From assembly GCA_015686845.1 (NCBI GenBank), contig JADPRS010000021.1:1-64000 (forward strand): a stretch of 64,000 nt of DNA, read 5' to 3'. The notes under the pieces were generated by a model, which had not been told where the DNA came from, did no database searches, and saw only the letters and a list, made by a program, of their open reading frames with translations. Positions within the stretch are counted from its first letter, which is position 1, and every line of letters begins with the position of its first letter. Shown here piece by piece: positions 35,339-44,190 of the stretch. Both the position numbers and the translations under genes were made by a program. This DNA comes from Lutibacter sp. B2. GTDB taxonomy: Bacteria > Bacillota > Clostridia > Peptostreptococcales > Thermotaleaceae.

Positions 35339-35394
35339 ATGACATTTTCGTTCCGGAAATGTTATTTTTTTGAATAAAAGATGTATAATCATAA
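35339..35394 (+). promoter_or_regulatory. Shared upstream element, copy 1 (hairpin plus -10)
   Basis: A 55-base segment: imperfect inverted repeat (ACATTTTCG / GGAAATGT), T-run, then TATAATCATA (-10 at 35384-35389). About 48 of 56 aligned positions match the element before the AgrD-like gene. No -35 box is visible 17 bases upstream, suggesting an activated promoter. The hairpin and T-run could also be the terminator of the acetyltransferase gene. Confidence 0.6.
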
Positions 35395-35415: not shown

Positions 35416-35604
35416 TTGAATTTTAAAGACATAAAATATATTTTTAAAGAAAAGGGAAGTGTTATTAGTTATACATTGGTATATATGCTTCTATTTAGTA
35501 ATTTCAATGATAAAAGTTCACTAGAGAAAATATGTATAACTATAGGTTTTATTTCATATATAATGCTACTATATCTGAACATAAAATCATTATATGATAA
35601 ATAA
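35416..35604 (+). CDS. Small membrane protein with shared agrD-type upstream element
   Basis: A 62-residue protein starting at TTG after a strong AGGGGGG ribosome-binding site. Two hydrophobic stretches (about 17-30 and 40-57) suggest a small integral membrane protein; there is no known family. Its upstream region is nearly identical to that of the AgrD-like peptide gene, so both are probably controlled together. It lacks the Cys ring and Pro-rich tail of AgrD peptides. Confidence 0.55.
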   Translation: MNFKDIKYIFKEKGSVISYTLVYMLLFSNFNDKSSLEKICITIGFISYIMLLYLNIKSLYDK

Positions 35605-35671
35605 TGCATATAGTAGAATAGGTGTTAAACGTGTGTATAGAGGAGTCTAATTAAAATGGAGGCGTTAGATT

Positions 35672-36208
35672 ATGGAAGTTCTGATTGTTACAGAAAGATT
35701 AAATATTTGTTTAGCGGAAGAACAAGATATTCATACCATCATTGAACTCGAGAATCATAAAGAAAATAAAAATTTTGTTTGGCAAGGTACATATGAACAA
35801 CATGTAGATGAAATTAATAGTGATACTGCCTTACTACTTACCTTCAAAGAAAAAAATGGAAATCAAATGGTAGGCTATGCATTAGCTAAGATTGATTTTA
35901 AGTCTGAGGTTTTTGAATTACGTAGAATTGTAATTTCGAAAAAAGGTTGTGGCTATGGAAAGGAATCTATTTTGGGAATCATAAAATATAGTTTTGAGGA
36001 ATTGAATACAAATAGATTTTGGTTAGATGTATATCCTGATAACGAAATTGGGATTAATTTATATAAGGGTATTGGTATGCATTTTGATGGTATGTTGCGT
36101 AAATCCTATAAAAGTGAAAGAGGATATCTGGATCAAATGATTTTTTCCATTCTAAGAGAAGAGTATTTTATAGATAAAAAACAAGTGTATTTTCATGTCT
36201 CTAAATGA
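35672..36208 (+). CDS. GNAT-family N-acetyltransferase (RimJ/RimL-like)
   Basis: A 178-residue GNAT protein. ELRRIVISKKGCGYGKES carries the acetyl-CoA loop (about 88-105), and NEIGINLYKGIGMHFDG is the usual C-terminal helix-strand. GGAGG lies eight bases before the ATG. The target is unknown. The stop codon touches the second copy of the shared upstream element. Confidence 0.8.
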   Translation: MEVLIVTERLNICLAEEQDIHTIIELENHKENKNFVWQGTYEQHVDEINSDTALLLTFKEKNGNQMVGYALAKIDFKSEVFELRRIVISKKGCGYGKESILGIIKYSFEELNTNRFWLDVYPDNEIGINLYKGIGMHFDGMLRKSYKSERGYLDQMIFSILREEYFIDKKQVYFHVSK

Positions 36209-36260
36209 CATTTTCGTTCTGAAAATGCCATTTTTTTTGAGAAAAAATGTATAATCATAG
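36205..36260 (+). promoter_or_regulatory. Shared upstream element, copy 2, before the AgrD-like gene
   Basis: Same layout as 35339-35394: ATGACATTTTCGTTC is identical, then GAAAATG, T-run and ATGTATAATCATA (-10 at 36250-36255). A start site near 36262 would give a leader of about 24 bases. Likely regulator is the LytTR protein at 40173; the same hairpin could also terminate the acetyltransferase transcript. Confidence 0.6.
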
Positions 36261-36285
36261 AGAAAGCTGTTGAGGAGGGAAAATA

Positions 36286-36417
36286 ATGAAATATAAAATA
36301 GTATCTATGTGCATTTCATTTTTTGCAATGATTGGAGCATTTGGAGCACAAATGTATTGCCAAGGTTGGTATTATAAACCTCAAATACCAAAGGAAATGG
36401 AAAATATCTATAAGTGA
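36286..36417 (+). CDS. AgrD-like cyclic (thio)lactone autoinducer precursor
   Basis: A 43-residue peptide gene too short for most gene finders. It has a hydrophobic/amphipathic N-terminal leader (about 1-24), a single candidate ring cysteine at residue 25 followed by QGWY, then a charged, proline-rich tail (PQIPKEMENIYK). This matches AgrD precursors, where AgrB makes a thiolactone from Cys to the fifth residue and removes the tail; the ring would be C-Q-G-W-Y. GGAGGG lies seven bases before the ATG. The only AgrB in the window is 5.8 kb downstream. Confidence 0.82.
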   Translation: MKYKIVSMCISFFAMIGAFGAQMYCQGWYYKPQIPKEMENIYK

Positions 36418-36511
36418 AGTTAGTACGATAAATTTAAAATGCTAAAGGGATTAAAGGAAGTATAGAAAAGTATAAAAGTTATATATGTATAAAACAAAAT
36501 GATATGGATTA

Positions 36512-36994
36512 TCAACACTTTGTTAGATAACTTTTAAGGCGATTCGATTTATACTGGTATGGTGTTAAATAACCTAATATATACTGTAACTTCCGCAAAA
36601 ATCTAAATATTTGACATTTTATTAATTCGGTCTTTATTAGTTTGAAAGGAGCTTCAGTAACTGCGTTTAAATTCGTTTTTACACTAGTAAAAGCTCTTGA
36701 CACCAATGATATATCTTTGTTTCTGCCAGGATTCATAGTAATAGGTACTTCTAGGAACTTGTAGGACTTTACACAATTCTGATACAGAGTATTTGTGACA
36801 GTGTGGTTATCTTTTTCATGGAAAGAACCGGTTGTTTGAGATTGTTTAATTCATTTATCAAGCACAGATGCGGCAAGATCATATTCCTTGACAATATCGT
36901 ATTTTCTTTTGCCATTAAGGTAAAATTGAACCATTTGATTATTGAATTCATCTGTGAATGTACGGCGTGATCGTTTGGATGATTGATTGGTCAT
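36512..36994 (-). pseudogene. IS3-family transposase remnant (orfA + orfB ends)
   Basis: Read on the minus strand from 36994: KRSRRTFTDEFNNQMVQFY is the start of an IS3-type OrfA, with TGA replacing the Trp of the usual DKWIKQ. Then, in another frame, ELCKVLQVPRSTYYYE is the OrfB start, and LGYLTPYQYK near 36530 is the OrfB end. Most of OrfB is deleted. Clearly non-functional. I could not define terminal inverted repeats. Confidence 0.8.
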
Positions 36995-37155
36995 GATAAT
37001 TATCCTTTTCATTATTGATTGTATATTATATGACCTTGAAAATTCTGTGCAATTTAGTATAGTATATCCAATTTATTAAATTAGTTCTATAAGGAGGTGT
37101 AAATTAACTTATATGTAAGAAACCATTATAAATTAACTTCAGGGGGGTATTAGAA

Positions 37156-37944
37156 ATGAAAAAGTTTATATCTGTAATTTTAACATTATCTATGCTATTA
37201 ACATTTTCTTTATGTCAAGTAAGTTTTGCTAGTGAAAAAATAATTAATAAAGGTACAATTAATGGAGAAACTTTTACTGCAAGAGAAATTGAAAATAATT
37301 CACAAGTACGTATAGTAACAGTAGAAAATAATACAAGTATTATAAAAGCAATATATGATAAAAATACTAATAAAATAAAATTATCTAGATTAGCAAAAAG
37401 TGAAAGTAAAGCAAGATTTTTAAGCAATCAGTCATTTGATTATATAACTACTATTAATCTTTCTCAAATGAATGAATTGAGCACTAGGAGTGGCTATAGC
37501 TATAAATACGTATCAGAGTACTATTCTAAATATAAATATAATATTATAAAGGCCTCAAATTCAGGACGAATTTTTAACCTAGCAATTCCAAATGATAGAT
37601 TAACTACTCCTATTGTAAGTGATGGTCGAATAATGAGCAGTTGTTATGAATTTGAAGAGGATTTAAAGTCAGCTGATAGTCATACTTCAAGTGCTATACG
37701 TGCTGGATGTGGATTTATACCAGGCGTTGGAACATGTGTCTCTGTGGCTAGTATTCTTGAAAGTCTATCTTTTGAAGATTTAAGCAAAGCAGATTATATT
37801 TCTGCTGTAATATCAGCTGTTGAATTAGTACCTGGAATTGGTCAACTAGTAAATATGGCAGACTTTGGTTCGCATGCTTCTTTAGCCGGAGCACAATTAT
37901 TCAATACTCGTCAAGACTTTAGAAATGTAAAAAAACGTATTTAA
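37156..37944 (+). CDS. Secreted bacteriocin-like protein (possible geobacillin-26 family)
   Basis: A 262-residue protein with a classical signal peptide (cleavage after VSFA, residue 25). The mature C-terminal half has two glycine-containing hydrophobic segments, GCGFIPGVGTCVSVAS (about 184-199) and ISAVELVPGIGQLVNMA (about 218-234), as in membrane-active toxins. It reminds me of the large secreted bacteriocin geobacillin 26, but the family call is tentative. Strong GGGGGG ribosome-binding site. It lies between decayed transposases and two small membrane proteins that could give immunity. Confidence 0.6.
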   Translation: MKKFISVILTLSMLLTFSLCQVSFASEKIINKGTINGETFTAREIENNSQVRIVTVENNTSIIKAIYDKNTNKIKLSRLAKSESKARFLSNQSFDYITTINLSQMNELSTRSGYSYKYVSEYYSKYKYNIIKASNSGRIFNLAIPNDRLTTPIVSDGRIMSSCYEFEEDLKSADSHTSSAIRAGCGFIPGVGTCVSVASILESLSFEDLSKADYISAVISAVELVPGIGQLVNMADFGSHASLAGAQLFNTRQDFRNVKKRI

Positions 37945-37964
37945 TATAAGGTACATAAAAAATT

Positions 37965-38010
37965 AAAAAGAGATTTTCTGATGTTTAAAAACAGAAAATC
38001 TCTTTTTAAA
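37965..38010 (+). terminator. Terminator of the secreted-protein gene
   Basis: Perfect 16-base arms (AAAAAGAGATTTTCTG and complement) around an 11-base loop; T-rich end. Confidence 0.85.
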
Positions 38011-38225
38011 ATGATTATATTTATAAAGTGGTTTTTAAATTTTATAACCTTCTTCTTAAAAGAAAAATTATTATGAAGAGAATGTAGTATTAATTGCAAA
38101 AATAAATGTGACTGTTAATGAATTTGGATAAATTTTTTTAGAATGATATAATAATCTTAGACTATAAAGTTTATATACGTGAATTAAATAAAATAAAGTA
38201 GCATTATTAATAATGGGGGAGAAAT

Positions 38226-38531
38226 ATGAATAATAATGAAGAAAACAAAGGAAAAAAAATAATAGAAAAGTTTCAAAGACGACAAACAATAAGTATAATA
38301 CTTACCGCTATAATTGTTTTTTTATCTCCTTTTCTTATAATTTCTTTTTATTTTTCCAAATTTTATAAATTGGAAATTTTAAAAAGTATACAAGTAATAA
38401 TGCTAGTCTTAATTTTAATAATACCCGTTATTACTGTATTTTTAAGAAGATGTCCAAATTGTGGACATTTTTTTGGAAGATACAATATAGCTCCAACATA
38501 TTGTTCTAAATGTGGCATTAAATTAAAATAA
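38226..38531 (+). CDS. Small two-TM membrane protein with C-terminal zinc ribbon (paralogue 1)
   Basis: A 101-residue protein: charged N-terminus, two membrane segments (about 22-43 and 52-72), then CPNCGHFFGRYNIAPTYCSKCG, a four-cysteine zinc ribbon facing the cytoplasm or outside. GGGGGAG lies before the ATG. A homologue with the same layout is at 39010. No known family; immunity or membrane-stress roles are possible given the neighbouring bacteriocin-like gene. Confidence 0.65.
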   Translation: MNNNEENKGKKIIEKFQRRQTISIILTAIIVFLSPFLIISFYFSKFYKLEILKSIQVIMLVLILIIPVITVFLRRCPNCGHFFGRYNIAPTYCSKCGIKLK

Positions 38532-38644
38532 ATAACATAAATGGTGTTGTATATAAGTAATTAATATTATATTCTAGTTAATGAAAAAAAAATATATATA
38601 TTTTCCAGTACATTTTCTCAAGAAGATATACCCTTAGGAAATTA

Positions 38645-38900
38645 AACTTTTAAGGATTTTGATAATACTTTGTTGATATTTAATGGCTATGTCAGCTGTG
38701 AAAAAACTATTTCTATTCGTCTCCTCATTTTAAAAATAAGTTGGCGAAATCATTTTGGATAAGGGTTTTTACTATTATCTCTTTTCATAAATATCAAATT
38801 AATTCCTTTTGCATGCTGTAGCATTTGTTTTTGCCCTATCTTGATTGTTACAGATTTCAATAATAGGTTAACATAACTGCTAGAGCGTTTCTATTTGTAA
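38645..38900 (-). pseudogene. DDE transposase C-terminal remnant
   Basis: In the 478-base gap between the paralogues, the minus strand reads QMLQHAKGINLIFMKRD, NPYPK-stop-FRQLIFKMRRR, IEIVFSQLT-stop and LNINKVLSKSLK. This is the end of an IS982-like DDE transposase with several stops, one in place of a Trp. Decayed; limits approximate. Confidence 0.6.
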
Positions 38901-39009
38901 TTTTCAACTAGTACAACGGGTTAATGTAAGATATATGCTTTAAAACATAAAGAAATATGATAGATGATTTATTTTACATAAAATAGAGGGTATTTGGAGG
39001 ATGTAATTT

Positions 39010-39297
39010 ATGCAAAATAAAAATAGTAATAATATTATAAACGAATTTAAAAAAAGACAAATCAAACAATATATAATCACGATATTAGTTGTTCTAGTGC
39101 TTATATATATACAATGTGACAAATTCAATTTACTTATAAGAAAGCACATTCAGATTAATGGATTTATCTTGATATTAATTATAGCTATTTGTATATTTTT
39201 CAGTTTTTTTAATTGGAGATGTCCAGCATGTAATGTATACTTAGGTAGAAATATTTTCCCTAAATATTGTAATAAGTGTGGTAGTAAACTATGCTAA
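39010..39297 (+). CDS. Small two-TM membrane protein with C-terminal zinc ribbon (paralogue 2)
   Basis: A 95-residue protein with two membrane segments (about 20-35 and 50-67) and a C-terminal ribbon (RCPACNVYLGRN, YCNKCGSKLC). It aligns end to end with the 38226 protein: basic N-terminus with F-x-x-RQ, two membrane segments, CPxC...GR...YCxKCGxKL. GGAGGATG precedes the ATG. Duplicate copies separated by a dead transposase suggest local duplication. Confidence 0.65.
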   Translation: MQNKNSNNIINEFKKRQIKQYIITILVVLVLIYIQCDKFNLLIRKHIQINGFILILIIAICIFFSFFNWRCPACNVYLGRNIFPKYCNKCGSKLC

Positions 39298-39432
39298 ATA
39301 GTAATTTGATCAAGTATAATATTGGCTGTAGGCCAAGATGCATGTAAAAAGCACTAGTTTTTGTAAATAAATAATATTTTATTGAAATAAAAAAATATAG
39401 ACATTTCCCACATCTTTGTGTAGTATATTTCT

Positions 39433-39990
39433 GTGACAAAACAAAGGTCGATAAGGAAAATAAAAAAATTCACTAAAATTCATATAGCAATTACTGCAAG
39501 ATCATCCCTACCCAAACCTCCAAATCAAGGGTTTATTTTACGAAATAGTTGGTACAGTGCTGAAAAAATTGTCAAAGCACCACAAAATAAAGACTTTTAT
39601 TATTTAGATGCATTAAAAACAAATCGAATTATTTGTCCAAAACAATGCCGTATGAATTATAAAATCAAAGATTTTGTTAAATTGTTAAACAATGAAGATT
39701 TTCACCTTGTAACTGTGAACCAAAAATCTTATTATGTTTATAGATATCAAGGCAAAATCAACGGATTTTAAAATATAACCATTTTGTTAAGTTATTCTAA
39801 AGAAGCTTTTTGTAATGAAAGTAATCTAAAATCTTTTATAACAACAGATACAAATCTTACGCCAAAAGATATGCATGTTTGATATTGTAATAGGTCTTTT
39901 GTTGATAGTAATTTTGTTAGAAAAAGCAAGAAAATCAACTGTAAATATAGAAAACAGAAATAATATTATTATAGTCCATGAAGGCAGAAA
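39433..39990 (+). pseudogene. DDE transposase remnant (IS4-like)
   Basis: RSSLPKPPNQGFILRNSWYSAEKIV, quoted in part as PPNQGFILRNSWYSAEK, then YYVYRYQGKINGF-stop-NITILLSYSKEAF, TTDTNLTPKDM and CNRSFVDSNFVRKS form the catalytic middle of an IS4-like DDE transposase. It is interrupted by stops, has no proper start, and the end is lost before about 39990. Confidence 0.75.
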
Positions 39991-40019
39991 GAATGAGGTT
40001 TATGAGCATAAATAATGGT

Positions 40020-40062
40020 TAGAGCAGTTAGGGAAAATTTTAATCCTATAGCTCTATTTTTT
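40020..40062 (+). terminator. Hairpin terminator before the agr-like operon
   Basis: TAGAGC..TTAGGG and CCTATAGCTCTA pair around an A/T loop, followed by TTTTTT. It isolates the operon from the transposase remnant. Confidence 0.6.
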
Positions 40063-40076
40063 GCATAAAAAACACT

Positions 40077-40122
40077 AATGTCGCAAAGAACGACATTTTT
40101 TTTGTTGTTTTTATATTATAAT
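40077..40122 (+). promoter_or_regulatory. Operator-like repeat and -10 of the agr-like operon
   Basis: AATGTCG (40077-40083) and CGACATT (40091-40097) are perfect inverted arms, followed by a T-run and, 14 bases on, TATTATAAT (-10 at 40117-40122). The layout matches the elements at 35339 and 36205, although the repeat sequence is only partly alike. No -35 box is seen. This could make the response regulator control its own operon. Confidence 0.5.
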
Positions 40123-40172
40123 TTTTTTGTATTACAATAGGTTTTTAAATTATTAGGGAAAGAGGTCTCAAT

Positions 40173-40883
40173 ATGAAGTTAAGAATTGTTCTTGCAGAAG
40201 ACAACGAATTGCTGAGAAAATCACTAATGAAAAAACTTTCTATAATGGAAGGAATAGAAGTCGTATATTTTTCAGAAGACGGAGAGGATTTTGTTAAGGC
40301 AGTAAGAAAAATAAAACCTGATATAGCTATAACTGATATTGATATGCCAAAGATGAATGGAATTGAAGCTGCAAAAAAAATTCGAGAAGAATTATCAGAT
40401 ACAGAAATAATATTTATTACTTCTTATAGTGAGTACATAAAAGAGGCTGTGGAACTCTATGCTTTTGATTATATAGAAAAGCCCATAAATATTTTGAGAT
40501 TAGAAGCCACTATAGAAAGATTGAAAAGAAAATATGACAAAGTAGAAAGCATATTTCAGTTCAAAACAGAAGAAGGATTAGAATGTGTTAGTACAAAGGA
40601 TTTGTATTTGGTTGAGGCATTTCAAAAAAAGACAATTATTTATACCTTAAATAATAAATTTATATCACAACAGTCTTTAAAAGAAGTTGACAAAATGTTG
40701 AACAATGAAAAATTCTTTAAGACAAGCAGATCATATATTGTGAACATTGAAAAAATAGCAGAGATTCATTCAATGTCTAGAACTTCATGTGAGCTATCAT
40801 TTAAAGGGAAAGGATATAAGGCACAACTTACAAAAAAGAATTTTGAAGAATTAAGGAAAAGAATAAAAGAAATATCTAGATAG
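40173..40883 (+). CDS. LytTR-type response regulator (AgrA-like)
   Basis: A 236-residue two-domain regulator. The receiver domain (1-120) has acidic residues E9/D10, phospho-acceptor Asp55 (ITDIDMP) and the conserved Lys in EKP (about 108). The C-terminal LytTR DNA-binding domain (about 135-236) has the typical RSYIVNIEKI segment. It should be phosphorylated by the kinase two genes on and drive agr-type promoters. First gene of a four-gene operon. GGGAAAGAGG ribosome-binding site. Confidence 0.9.
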   Translation: MKLRIVLAEDNELLRKSLMKKLSIMEGIEVVYFSEDGEDFVKAVRKIKPDIAITDIDMPKMNGIEAAKKIREELSDTEIIFITSYSEYIKEAVELYAFDYIEKPINILRLEATIERLKRKYDKVESIFQFKTEEGLECVSTKDLYLVEAFQKKTIIYTLNNKFISQQSLKEVDKMLNNEKFFKTSRSYIVNIEKIAEIHSMSRTSCELSFKGKGYKAQLTKKNFEELRKRIKEISR

Positions 40884-40894
40884 GGGAGAAATAA

Positions 40895-41359
40895 GTGGAG
40901 CAATACGTACTAGTAAAAATATTTATGTTTTCAACACTGGAGAATATCGTAATTTTGAGTATGGCTCATGGATTCTTAGGTAAAAAGATAAATTGGATAA
41001 AATGGATATTCATTTCAATGATTATAGCTATAGTGTTACATTTTATCAGAATAAGTAGTGATAACTATATTTTATACAGTGTAATTTCGACGTGTATATT
41101 TATAGTAGGTTTAATTACGATAAAAGCAGTAGGTCTATTCTATGCAATAATCGTTATTTTTTTAAGCGAAGCTATTTATAATATGATTGAGTTTTTAACC
41201 ATAAAAATGCTTATTATTATTTTTAAAATAAATCCTTTAAATTTTGCTCACGATTTATTTTTAGCTATTTATTGTTTTATCCCTCAGATATTATTAGCTT
41301 TTGGTATTTCGTACATGATTAGTTACTATAATTTCTCGATTTTTAATGACAATAGGTGA
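40895..41359 (+). CDS. Five-TM membrane protein, possible split AgrC sensor part
   Basis: A 154-residue protein starting at GTG (GGGGAG upstream), almost entirely hydrophobic with about five membrane segments and ending in a short cytoplasmic tail. No family recognised. It overlaps the kinase gene by four bases. AgrC receptors carry a five- or six-TM sensor domain fused to the kinase; here the kinase has only two TM segments. This protein may therefore be the separate peptide-sensing part. That is inference from size, topology and position. Confidence 0.7.
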   Translation: MEQYVLVKIFMFSTLENIVILSMAHGFLGKKINWIKWIFISMIIAIVLHFIRISSDNYILYSVISTCIFIVGLITIKAVGLFYAIIVIFLSEAIYNMIEFLTIKMLIIIFKINPLNFAHDLFLAIYCFIPQILLAFGISYMISYYNFSIFNDNR

Positions 41360-42237
41360 TGGGAATGAAGATGAATTCAATAAAAATATACAGGAGAGCG
41401 ATTATTTACAATGCTATTCAAATTATTTTGATAACACTTTTGATCAATAATAACTTTATGAAAGAATTGAATTATTTTCAGCCAGCTGATAGGGATGCAT
41501 TTGAATTGATACTTGGGATGATTATTTTTATAATCAATTTTTGCGTAATATTTGTTATAAAGGGATTATATATAGCATCTAAAGAAGAAGAAGAAAAGAA
41601 CATAAATCTATTAAGATACCAGCATATAGAAGAACAAAAACAACTGTATATTCGTCAAAAGCATGATATGAAGAATCATTTGATGGTTATATCTGAATTA
41701 GCAAAAGAAAAGGAATATAGTAGATTAGATAAATATTTAGTAGCGTATGAAAAGGAAGTGGATCAAAGTTTTATGTTAGTAGATACGGGATGTAAGGAAC
41801 TGGATATATTATTTTATACTAAAATCAAAAAAGCAAAACAATTGTATATGGATGTAAACTTTAAATGCAGTACGCGTATAAAATGTAGTAATAAAAGAAT
41901 ACTTGATTTGATTTCAATTTCATCTAATATTTTAGATAATGCCTTGGAAGCGTGTGAAATAATAGATGACGATAATAAAAAAGAGATATCTATAGAGATT
42001 TATGATGATGTGGTTGATCATATCTTGATTGTTAAAAATACATTTAATAAAATGCAAGAAATAAATAAGGAAAAAATCTTTAAAGAGGGTTTTTCTACAA
42101 AAGGGAGTAATGCACGAGGGCAAGGTCTTTATATTGTTAAAAAGAAGGTTTCAAAACTTAATGGGAAATTTCATGTTGATATAATAGATCAATATTTTCA
42201 AATAAAAATTGAAATACCTAAATACATGATGGAGTGA
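41356..42237 (+). CDS. GHKL sensor histidine kinase (AgrC-like, short sensor)
   Basis: A 293-residue kinase. Two membrane segments (about 14-31 and 50-72), a coiled linker, the H-box with His103 (KHDMKNHL, as in AgrC), and a GHKL ATPase domain with the N-box DNALEAC and G-rich GFSTKGSNARGQGLYIV. It should autophosphorylate His103 and pass phosphate to the LytTR regulator. Overlaps the preceding gene and the agrB-like gene by four bases each, indicating tight coupling. Confidence 0.9.
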   Translation: MMGMKMNSIKIYRRAIIYNAIQIILITLLINNNFMKELNYFQPADRDAFELILGMIIFIINFCVIFVIKGLYIASKEEEEKNINLLRYQHIEEQKQLYIRQKHDMKNHLMVISELAKEKEYSRLDKYLVAYEKEVDQSFMLVDTGCKELDILFYTKIKKAKQLYMDVNFKCSTRIKCSNKRILDLISISSNILDNALEACEIIDDDNKKEISIEIYDDVVDHILIVKNTFNKMQEINKEKIFKEGFSTKGSNARGQGLYIVKKKVSKLNGKFHVDIIDQYFQIKIEIPKYMME

Positions 42238-42833
42238 GTAAAATGATCAATATAGAAAAGATATCCCGAAAAATTTTAACAATGAATATAGTACAAAATA
42301 TTGATCTTAATCCTATGGAAAAATCAAAAGCAGAATATGGATTGAGCATATTTCTAGGAATTGTTATTGAGTTTTTAGTAGCATTAATAATTTCTTGTTT
42401 TATAAAAACTTCATTTTATTTATGGATTATTATGCTTTCATCTATGTCGCTTAGAATATTTATAGGAGAAGCACATTGTTCTAGCTATGATAGGTGTTTT
42501 ATATTTACATTACTGTATTTTATACCAGCTTCTATTTTTACAAAATTTATTCATTATAATTATTCGGATTTTCATATTTTGATGTTTTGTATGGGTTTAC
42601 TTATACTGAATCTATTGATTTTACTTTCAAAAAAAGAACTATATTCCTTAGTTGTAATAGCTGCATATGGAGTATTTGTAATTTTTCTTGATTATGTAGT
42701 TATGAAAGATATATTATTGGGCGTATTGTTATCGATAACCGTTGGATTCACATTACAATCTTTTTCAGCAACATTTGTAGGAAAGTACTATGTCATGTTT
42801 ATGGATGAACTTATGAAAAGAAATAGAATTTAA
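42234..42833 (+). CDS. agrB: AgrB-like peptide-processing membrane endopeptidase
   Basis: A 199-residue membrane protein of the AgrB family. Catalytic His81 and Cys88 (GEAHCSSYDRC) have the same seven-residue spacing as His77/Cys84 of Staphylococcus AgrB, followed by four to five membrane segments. It cleaves and cyclises AgrD-type peptides. The start is GTG at 42234 overlapping the kinase stop, or ATG at 42243, which has GGAG eight bases upstream. No agrD lies next to it; the candidate precursor is at 36286. Confidence 0.9.
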   Translation: MSKMINIEKISRKILTMNIVQNIDLNPMEKSKAEYGLSIFLGIVIEFLVALIISCFIKTSFYLWIIMLSSMSLRIFIGEAHCSSYDRCFIFTLLYFIPASIFTKFIHYNYSDFHILMFCMGLLILNLLILLSKKELYSLVVIAAYGVFVIFLDYVVMKDILLGVLLSITVGFTLQSFSATFVGKYYVMFMDELMKRNRI

Positions 42834-42862
42834 CTATCTGTATATTTACAGGTAGTTTTTTT
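42832..42862 (+). terminator. Terminator of the agr-like operon
   Basis: AACTATCTGTA and TACAGGTAGTT arms with a G-T pair, then a seven-base T-run, overlapping the agrB stop codon. Confidence 0.8.
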
Positions 42863-42870
42863 ATTACTCT

Positions 42871-42910
42871 TTTGGAATAATTCAACATGTTTGGAATACA
42901 ACTGTATAAA
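42871..42910 (+). promoter_or_regulatory. Direct repeat before the DUF819 gene
   Basis: TTTGGAATA occurs at 42871-42879 and 42890-42898 (19-base period), followed by TATAAA at 42905-42910 as a possible -10. Two helical-turn-spaced direct repeats just upstream of a weak promoter suggest an activator site. Regulator unknown. Confidence 0.4.
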
Positions 42911-42978: not shown

Positions 42979-44190
42979 ATGAGTTCATTCATCAGTTCAG
43001 AAAACACGTGGGCATTATGGGCAATATTAACAGGTATTGCTGCTATCAGTATTTATCTAGAACAAACATATTCTTGGGCGTCAAAAATTACAGGATGTGT
43101 AATAGGCTTAATAATAGCAATGGTATTATCTAACTTTAAAATTATTCCTGTAGATGCACCTGCATATGACCAAGTATGGGGGTATGTAGTACCTTTAGCA
43201 ATTCCACTGCTCTTATACAAGGCAGACATAAGGAAAATATGGAAAGAAAGTGGAAGAGTATTGGTTATTTATTTGATTAGTTCTATGGGAACATTGCTTG
43301 GAGGGTACATTGCATTTATACTATTAAAAGATCATGTTCCAGAGTTGTATAAAGTAGGTGCCATGATGGCAGGTTCTTATACAGGGGGAGGCGTAAACTT
43401 CGCAGCTATGGCAGAATCCTTTGAAGCACCAGGAGAATTAGTATCTGCGGCAGTTGTGTCAGACAATCTTTTGATGGCATTATATTTCTTTGTATTAATT
43501 GCAATACCAACAATGAACATTTTCCTTGATAAATATACACATCCCCATATTGATGCTTTAAATGAAAAAGGCGAAGATGAAACAGGAAAGACACAAGCGG
43601 CAGCTTTCTGGGGAGCGAAAGAAATCTCATTAAAAGACATTGCTTTTGCTATATCTTCTGCATTTATTATTGTAGCGTGTTCTGCTCAAATAGCAGGAGT
43701 TTTTAAAACAATCATTCCAACAGGCAATATATTCTTAGATTTATTAAATGGTTTATTTGGAAATAAATATTTGATCATGACAACCCTTACAATGCTTCTA
43801 GCAACGTATAAAGCTGATTTTTTTGGAAATATAAGAGGGTCACAAGAGATTGGAACATTTTTAATATATATTTTCTTCGTGGTAATTGGGGTACCTGCTT
43901 CAATCGGTTTGATTATTCAAAAATCACCACTACTATTGGTTTTCTGCTTTATTATTGTACTTGTAAATATGATTGTAAGTTTTGGATTTGGAAAGTTATT
44001 CAAGTTTAGCTTAGAAGAGATTATACTAGCATCTAATGCAAACATTGGAGGACCTACTACCGCAGCGGCTATGGCTATTGCAAAAGGATGGGATAAATTA
44101 ATTGTTCCAATACTACTTGTTGGTACATTAGGCTATGTTATAGGAAACTATTATGGATTATTCTTAGGAAGTATTATGAAAGTGATGTAA
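42979..44190 (+). CDS. DUF819 family membrane protein
   Basis: A 403-residue polytopic membrane protein of the DUF819 family (YjcL-like), with about eleven hydrophobic segments. Family-typical stretches are YTGGGVNFAAMAE and the repeated SNANIGGPTTAAAMA, which look like inverted-repeat transporter re-entrant loops. Function is not established; transport of an organic anion or amino acid is plausible. AAAAGGGGG precedes the ATG. It begins the cluster with a dipeptidase and glycine decarboxylase-like genes. Confidence 0.85.
   Translation: MSSFISSENTWALWAILTGIAAISIYLEQTYSWASKITGCVIGLIIAMVLSNFKIIPVDAPAYDQVWGYVVPLAIPLLLYKADIRKIWKESGRVLVIYLISSMGTLLGGYIAFILLKDHVPELYKVGAMMAGSYTGGGVNFAAMAESFEAPGELVSAAVVSDNLLMALYFFVLIAIPTMNIFLDKYTHPHIDALNEKGEDETGKTQAAAFWGAKEISLKDIAFAISSAFIIVACSAQIAGVFKTIIPTGNIFLDLLNGLFGNKYLIMTTLTMLLATYKADFFGNIRGSQEIGTFLIYIFFVVIGVPASIGLIIQKSPLLLVFCFIIVLVNMIVSFGFGKLFKFSLEEIILASNANIGGPTTAAAMAIAKGWDKLIVPILLVGTLGYVIGNYYGLFLGSIMKVM

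Follow-up and report, generated by a model that had tools for sequence, protein, structure and literature searches.

A candidate dispersed agr-type quorum-sensing unit with a split AgrC and a detached agrD-like gene in Lutibacter sp. B2

The 64,000-nucleotide stretch of Lutibacter sp. B2 analysed here (contig JADPRS010000021.1, positions 1 to 64,000 of the forward strand; the window) carries genes of an agr-type quorum-sensing system in two places: a lone agrD-like peptide gene and, 3.8 kb downstream of it, the regulator gene that begins a four-gene operon ending in agrB. The agrD and agrB genes are 5.8 kb apart and so depart from the adjacency that is usual, if not universal, for this pair. 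The signalling genes and the feature that closes the operon are:

36286..36417, + strand: agrD-like peptide precursor of 43 residues (TIGR04223), ring candidate Cys25-QGWY, tail P32xxP35
40173..40883, + strand: response regulator with REC and LytTR domains, AgrA-like (PF00072, PF04397)
40895..41359, + strand: small membrane protein, resembling a detached AgrC sensor half (hhalign, AgrC residues 11-154)
41356..42237, + strand: GHKL histidine kinase, resembling the AgrC kinase half (PF14501; hhalign, AgrC residues 164-431)
42234..42833, + strand: divergent AgrB, catalytic His and Cys kept, PxDTxxKPI-type loop missing (PF04647; alignment of 22 AgrBs)
42834..42862, + strand: hairpin plus T-run directly 3' of agrB, terminator-like (-10.2 kcal/mol)

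Family searches confirmed the operon order given in a preliminary description of this DNA (regulator, membrane protein, kinase and AgrB, 40173-42833). The regulator has both domains of an AgrA-like LytTR regulator, PF00072 and PF04397. The product of the second gene, 154 residues long and hydrophobic, was assigned to no family; a profile of 21 sequences for this protein aligns to residues 11-154 of AgrC (hhalign; probability 92.5, E 4.8e-7), and a profile of three kinase sequences aligns to AgrC residues 164-431 (hhalign; E 2.7e-21), where the full-length AgrC reference profile consists of two sequences (from contig C72 of the same genome and from genome G009). The membrane-protein and kinase profiles do not align to each other (E 0.47), and the two proteins together tile AgrC in a manner that resembles a split receptor kinase, with AgrC-like features found in the two jointly. 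Other genomes have the two-gene form too, in agr loci where agrB and agrD are adjacent (e.g., loci L021, L024, L025, L027, L029 and L071), so a local sequencing frameshift is not the cause. A narrow open-access literature search on a split AgrC returned no paper.

The last protein of the operon has the features of an AgrB membrane peptidase, including the catalytic His and Cys, and scores 58.8 bits against PF04647 (cut-off 23). His78 and Cys85 (window numbering) are invariant in all 22 aligned AgrBs, the catalytic dyad of Staphylococcus aureus AgrB being His77/Cys84 (PMC10482373). A PxDTxxKPI-type loop of ~16 residues, present in 20 of the 22, is missing from the window protein and from its counterpart in Anaerophilus (genome G004), and a loss common to two genera points to a subfamily rather than to decay. 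The AlphaFold2 model of the membrane protein is all-helical, with a predicted local distance difference test score (pLDDT) of 89, and the AgrB model has a pLDDT of 88; as neither model had a PDB fold match at E ≤ 0.001 and the AgrB profile had no PDB sequence match, the models add helical topology only. No AgrB was found in the viral contigs or the plasmids searched.

There is little room for an agrD beside this agrB, since the kinase and agrB reading frames overlap, or abut if agrB begins at the ATG at 42243, and the hairpin with its T-run follows agrB directly. The family search found no AgrD above the TIGR04223 cut-off in or adjoining the operon, as had been stated at the outset. Two antisense open reading frames (ORFs; 40766-40903 and 43377-43640, - strand) that fit a looser AgrD pattern were rejected, neither having a TIGR04223 match. 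The 43-codon ORF at 36286-36417 (+), which is preceded by a strong ribosome-binding site (GAGGAGGG), matches TIGR04223 (quorum_AgrD) with 27 bits against a cut-off of 19 (hmmscan; E 3.7e-6), and its first identification as an AgrD-like precursor is upheld. Based on this match and on an alignment of 18 AgrDs, the peptide has the leader, ring Cys/Ser and Pro-containing tail of AgrD precursors; Cys25 is followed by four residues and then YKPQIP, and the second Pro of the PxxP is invariant across the alignment. The window peptide is alone among the 18 in having K before the first Pro, the rest having Q or E, and its leader is without the ASA present in many of the others. The alignment accords with the ring first proposed, and the mature signal probably contains a five-residue ring, CQGWY, likely a thiolactone.

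A search of the whole genome (3.24 Mb, 77 contigs, 98.4% complete) for other agrB and agrD genes, proposed in the preliminary description, located three AgrB places and three AgrD places above cut-off, each AgrD in an agr-type locus. In the C74 locus a membrane protein, AgrB and AgrD lie side by side, while in the C72 locus AgrD comes first, then a full-length AgrC and last AgrB, with ~1.4 kb between agrD and agrB. Adjacency of agrB and agrD, from which the preliminary description started, is not a general rule in Clostridia, as this D-C-B locus and C. autoethanogenum (PMC8748961) show. Both loci own an AgrD, and the window peptide was accordingly rejected as the sole AgrD of either. With three AgrBs and three AgrDs, and the other two AgrDs in other agr loci, the likeliest reading is that the window AgrD pairs with the window AgrB, as had first been supposed, by elimination and by the promoter-like element described below.

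Set against this pairing, the window peptide might be processed in trans by the canonical AgrB of C74 or C72, the divergent AgrB having another substrate or role. A precedent exists in C. autoethanogenum, in which agrD2C2 has no agrB and is thought to use the sole AgrB, encoded elsewhere (PMC8748961), and the window peptide keeps the PxxP tail while the window AgrB is without the loop of 20 of the 22 AgrBs. Processing in trans is nevertheless unlikely, as both other AgrBs have AgrDs of their own and the lowest-scoring AgrB and AgrD of the genome share one locus: in the genome search the AgrBs scored 151.1, 136.2 and 52.4 bits and the AgrDs 49.3, 33.7 and 25.6 bits, and the last value of each series belongs to the window.

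Relatives of the operon are few. Among 98 genomes (the Lutibacter genome included), the window AgrB had a match at E ≤ 1e-5 in nine and one close homologue, in Anaerophilus (38% identity, E 3.6e-27), where the operon has the same order as in the window and identities of 60, 43, 44 and 38% for regulator, membrane protein, kinase and AgrB. A scan of named genomes with AgrB by two short patterns, within reach of close relatives only, returned the Anaerophilus locus alone. Two other AgrBs of Anaerophilus each have an AgrD in their own locus. An alignment of the membrane protein from Lutibacter and Anaerophilus matched 10 of 393 genomes of the order at E ≤ 0.001, and beyond these two the sole strong match was genome G005 (1.7e-17; next, 3.2e-7). 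In the G005 locus (L060, 8841-15303), the place of AgrB after the regulator, membrane protein and kinase is taken by a peptide cleavage/export ATP-binding cassette (ABC) transporter with a C39 domain (TIGR01193, 691 bits, cut-off 524), together with an HlyD-like protein and a peptide whose leader is of the double-glycine type (family matches below cut-off). No match to the window AgrB was found in G005 at E ≤ 1e-5, a search with that protein in which PF04647 itself was left unrun, and no AgrD at E ≤ 0.01. The window kinase is 51% identical to that of G005 and 44% identical to that of Anaerophilus. At E ≤ 1e-40, an alignment of the three kinases matched the Lutibacter genome alone out of 391 genomes of the class; G004 and G005 are taken to be absent from that sample, since their kinases, being in the alignment, would have matched. 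The module of regulator and split AgrC looks rare in the genomes sampled.

A probable link between the detached agrD and the operon comes from an upstream element shared with ORF62 and, in part, with the stretch before the regulator:

35342..35389, + strand: promoter-like element ACATTTTCGTTC...AAATG..T-run, TATAAT at 35384-35389, upstream of ORF62 (40 of 48 bases identical to the agrD element)
35416..35604, + strand: ORF62, a hydrophobic ORF of 62 residues with a TTG start, no family found (ORF list, family searches)
35672..36208, + strand: GNAT acetyltransferase (PF00583 and PF13420 above cut-off)
36208..36255, + strand: promoter-like element upstream of agrD, TATAAT at 36250-36255, also a hairpin plus T-run (-8.6 kcal/mol)
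40095..40122, + strand: T-run to TATAAT stretch before the regulator (25 of 28 bases as in the G005 exporter promoter, downstream half)

The 48 bases up to the -10 box have 40 positions in common between agrD and ORF62, the next best place in the window having 32. A consensus was built from three sites (agrD, ORF62 and one in G005) and scanned, with up to three mismatches, in 10 genomes picked by the author from 16 of the family. Two sites were found in the Lutibacter genome, one in G005 between the kinase and the exporter, and none in the eight other family genomes; a reversed control pattern gave no sites in the scanned genomes, and the count expected in shuffled window sequence was 0.00. 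Because the consensus came from the element sites themselves, the window's own sequences were also ranked against 80 loci from other genomes (518 kb, some overlapping). The G005 site ranked first for the agrD 30-mer (24/30; next, 23) and for the ORF62 30-mer (25/30; next, 21), and was the best match to the AT-rich 28-mer upstream of the regulator (next, 22). In the G005 site a sequence also recurs exactly after 21 bases (0 of 200 shuffles), the period given by two AgrA sites of 9 bp placed 12 bp apart (PMC10482373). These comparisons suggest that the regulator controls agrD via the shared element, and the evidence that ties agrD to this regulator is of moderate strength. Several patterns were rejected as evidence: the 20-23-base repeats in the window promoters taken on their own, being within chance, the motif CATTTTCRTTC alone (11 window matches, 5.4 expected) and a 20-base hairpin pattern alone (2 matches, 1.24 expected). 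A general search for repeats in 36200-42900 yielded nothing useful. As a separate observation, ORF62 and the acetyltransferase (35416-36208), possibly co-transcribed, have the agrD-type element upstream and are possible regulon members.

The same element could be read as an intrinsic terminator only, with agrD outside the control of this regulator. All three copies are placed at or beyond a stop codon and can form a hairpin followed by a T-run (-8.6 kcal/mol for agrD, -12.7 for ORF62 and -7.2 for G005), and the stretch before the regulator folds as well (-6.5 kcal/mol). Such a reading is given a low probability, on a par with processing in trans, because the element is uncommon (two sites in 3.24 Mb), the similarity between agrD and ORF62 continues through the -10 box (40/48), and the G005 site contains the exact 21-base repeat.

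On balance, and with some reserve, the locus is probably a dispersed, intact-looking agr-type quorum-sensing unit. The AgrD encoded at 36286 would be processed by the divergent AgrB (42234) to a cyclic peptide, probably with the CQGWY thiolactone ring, and this peptide would be sensed by the split AgrC, of which the 40895 product would supply the sensor part and the 41356 product the kinase part. The LytTR regulator (40173) would then bind the element and activate the agrD promoter, forming a feedback loop, as well as the promoter of ORF62 and the acetyltransferase.

A number of observations weigh against this reading. The window AgrB is without the common loop, yet the tail of the peptide offered to it is still canonical-looking. 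The agrD 24-mer ranks the G005 site level with an Anaerophilus stretch (18 each), and a 48-mer query leaves that site outside the eight best. The best repeats near the 21-base period in the window are no more than chance would give (counts out of 200 shuffles: 75 for agrD, 48 for ORF62 and 141 for the regulator), the element folds as a hairpin with a T-run that could terminate transcription, and its sequences are AT-rich, which weakens all of the element comparisons. A third AgrD was not found in Anaerophilus, a result that is not decisive because the contig stops a few bases after agrB. AgrD sequences are highly variable. For that reason the finding that the window peptide has no match at E ≤ 0.01 in 97 other genomes, contrary to the conservation in relatives that the preliminary description had looked for, counts against the peptide without being decisive. 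The separation of agrB from agrD, for its part, has a precedent, since C. autoethanogenum shows the same (PMC8748961).

Between agrD and the operon lie five further features:

36515..37012, - strand: decayed IS3-like transposase remnant (rve_2, HTH_Tnp_1 and IS3, all below cut-off)
37156..37944, + strand: geobacillin-26-like protein with a signal-like N-terminus (by eye), candidate class III bacteriocin (NF035925, 37.8 bits, cut-off 40)
38226..38531, + strand: small hydrophobic protein, CxxC...CxxC (paralogue of the 39010-39297 protein, phmmer 1.9e-13)
39010..39297, + strand: second small hydrophobic protein, CxxC...CxxC (phmmer paralogy with the 38226-38531 protein)
39433..39771, + strand: IS701-like transposase remnant (NF033540, 21.3 bits, cut-off 150)

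The spacer had been described as holding a secreted bacteriocin-like protein and dead transposases; the transposase remnants are there, all below cut-off, and the bacteriocin-like protein (262 residues) stands as a resemblance and not as a member of NF035925 (37.8 against 40). It is plausible that this protein and its neighbours are cargo of the locus, and the 38226-38531 protein may be an immunity protein. The system may also control the bacteriocin-like gene, upstream of which the consensus scan found no copy of the element. A search of 39 other genomes gave only weak matches to the protein, two in number at E 0.002 and 0.008, which fall within ORFs of 693 and 383 residues; it was not found in the plasmids searched. 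Of 391 genomes of the class (the Lutibacter genome included), four have a match to the geobacillin-26 family and none is above cut-off.

The IS3-like remnant lies between agrD and the bacteriocin-like cargo and the IS701-like remnant between the cargo and the operon, an arrangement from which it had been supposed that insertion broke or rebuilt the locus. Taken furthest, the locus would be a relic in which insertions parted agrD from agrB and the system no longer works, and the serine-recombinase/TnpB-type ORFs just upstream of the Anaerophilus regulator (translations read by eye), where no third AgrD was found, could be read in the same way. A relic is improbable, however: both genomes keep all four operon ORFs intact, with 38-60% identity between them, the reading frame of agrD is likewise unbroken and comes with a ribosome-binding site and a promoter-like element, and neither remnant falls within a signalling gene. 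Breakage as such is unsupported, intact genes with ribosome-binding sites of their own lying between the two parts, and the separation would persist through the cargo genes even without the remnants. That the 43-residue ORF arose by chance is very improbable: a ring/tail motif taken from the peptide itself, found in one of 272 short ORFs of the window, is weak evidence alone (6 of 30 shuffled windows contain one or more such ORFs) and none of the 97 other genomes matched the peptide, but the ORF exceeds a curated family cut-off above which the 14 control genomes have no AgrD, and it has both the strong ribosome-binding site and the rare upstream element.

Other agr-type loci met in the searches are recorded in their own right. 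In six genomes (the C74 locus of Lutibacter, L030 6948-9964, and loci L061, L063, L064, L065 and L070) a gene for a membrane GGDEF-HD protein (Pfam) comes after those for an AgrC-sensor-like membrane protein, AgrB and AgrD, with no histidine kinase adjoining it, which suggests peptide signalling wired to cyclic di-GMP turnover. The Lutibacter gene may be interrupted, since its HD match is only partial and another ORF, of 99 residues, comes after it. For copies of the AgrC-sensor-like membrane protein in L066, L067, L068 and L069, no match to AgrB or to a kinase turned up within the fetched stretches, and their neighbours include tsaE/tsaB-like genes and, in L066-L068, an amidohydrolase (by eye). 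In L042 (1480-2203, genome G010), the ORF of 54 residues that comes after AgrB was not reported by the TIGR04223 search and is possibly a divergent AgrD.

If the preferred reading of a dispersed unit is true, agr peptide genes can lie kilobases from the gene for their processing, and searches for AgrD limited to the neighbourhood of agrB miss some. The split AgrC, found in several genomes of the order, lends itself to finding out which portion of AgrC the peptide binds to. More tentatively, the module may have swapped its signal-making partner in the course of evolution: here it stands with a detached AgrD and an AgrB that lacks the loop, in G005 with a C39 exporter and a double-glycine-leader peptide but no adjoining AgrB, and a similar promoter element is kept in both. 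Were this so, a receptor lineage would have moved between cyclic AgrB-made and linear exporter-made pheromones. A rare receptor module with two kinds of signal-making partner makes receptor-signal co-evolution directly testable.

Several known systems share parts of this arrangement. The protein at 37156-37944 has a family resemblance to geobacillin 26 and alicyclobacillin 24 and is broadly similar to them in size (PMC13176240), although it falls just below the family cut-off; the available portions of that account make no mention of quorum sensing or AgrD, and in three other loci with a match to the geobacillin-26 family, the fetched stretches contained nothing that matched the window agr proteins. 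Agr loci with the order membrane protein, histidine kinase, AgrB, AgrD, response regulator (G014 L027, G045 L029 and G077 L071) have the same split AgrC of small membrane protein and short kinase, but in them agrB and agrD are adjacent and the regulator is last. In C. difficile agr2, described as agrACDB (PMC3754575), a LytTR regulator comes first, the kinase next and AgrB last, as in the window, whereas in the window agrD is 3.8 kb upstream of the regulator and not between agrC and agrB, agrC is split in two genes and AgrB is without the loop that most aligned AgrBs have. The C. difficile RgaS-RgaR/Agr1 account (PMC10602386) has an Agr-type two-component system activating a separately placed AgrD gene, as proposed here; there, unlike in the window, agrB1D1 is one operon and, by that account, the peptide does not have the RgaS-RgaR kinase as its receptor. 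C. autoethanogenum is described as having system 1 in the order D1-C1-B1 and system 2 as D2-C2 without an adjoining agrB (PMC8748961), and is like the window in that AgrD is apart from AgrB, though there agrD adjoins its kinase gene while the window agrD stands alone, with cargo-like genes and transposase remnants between. The arrangement in Lutibacter is unusual but of a known kind, an agr-type signalling system.

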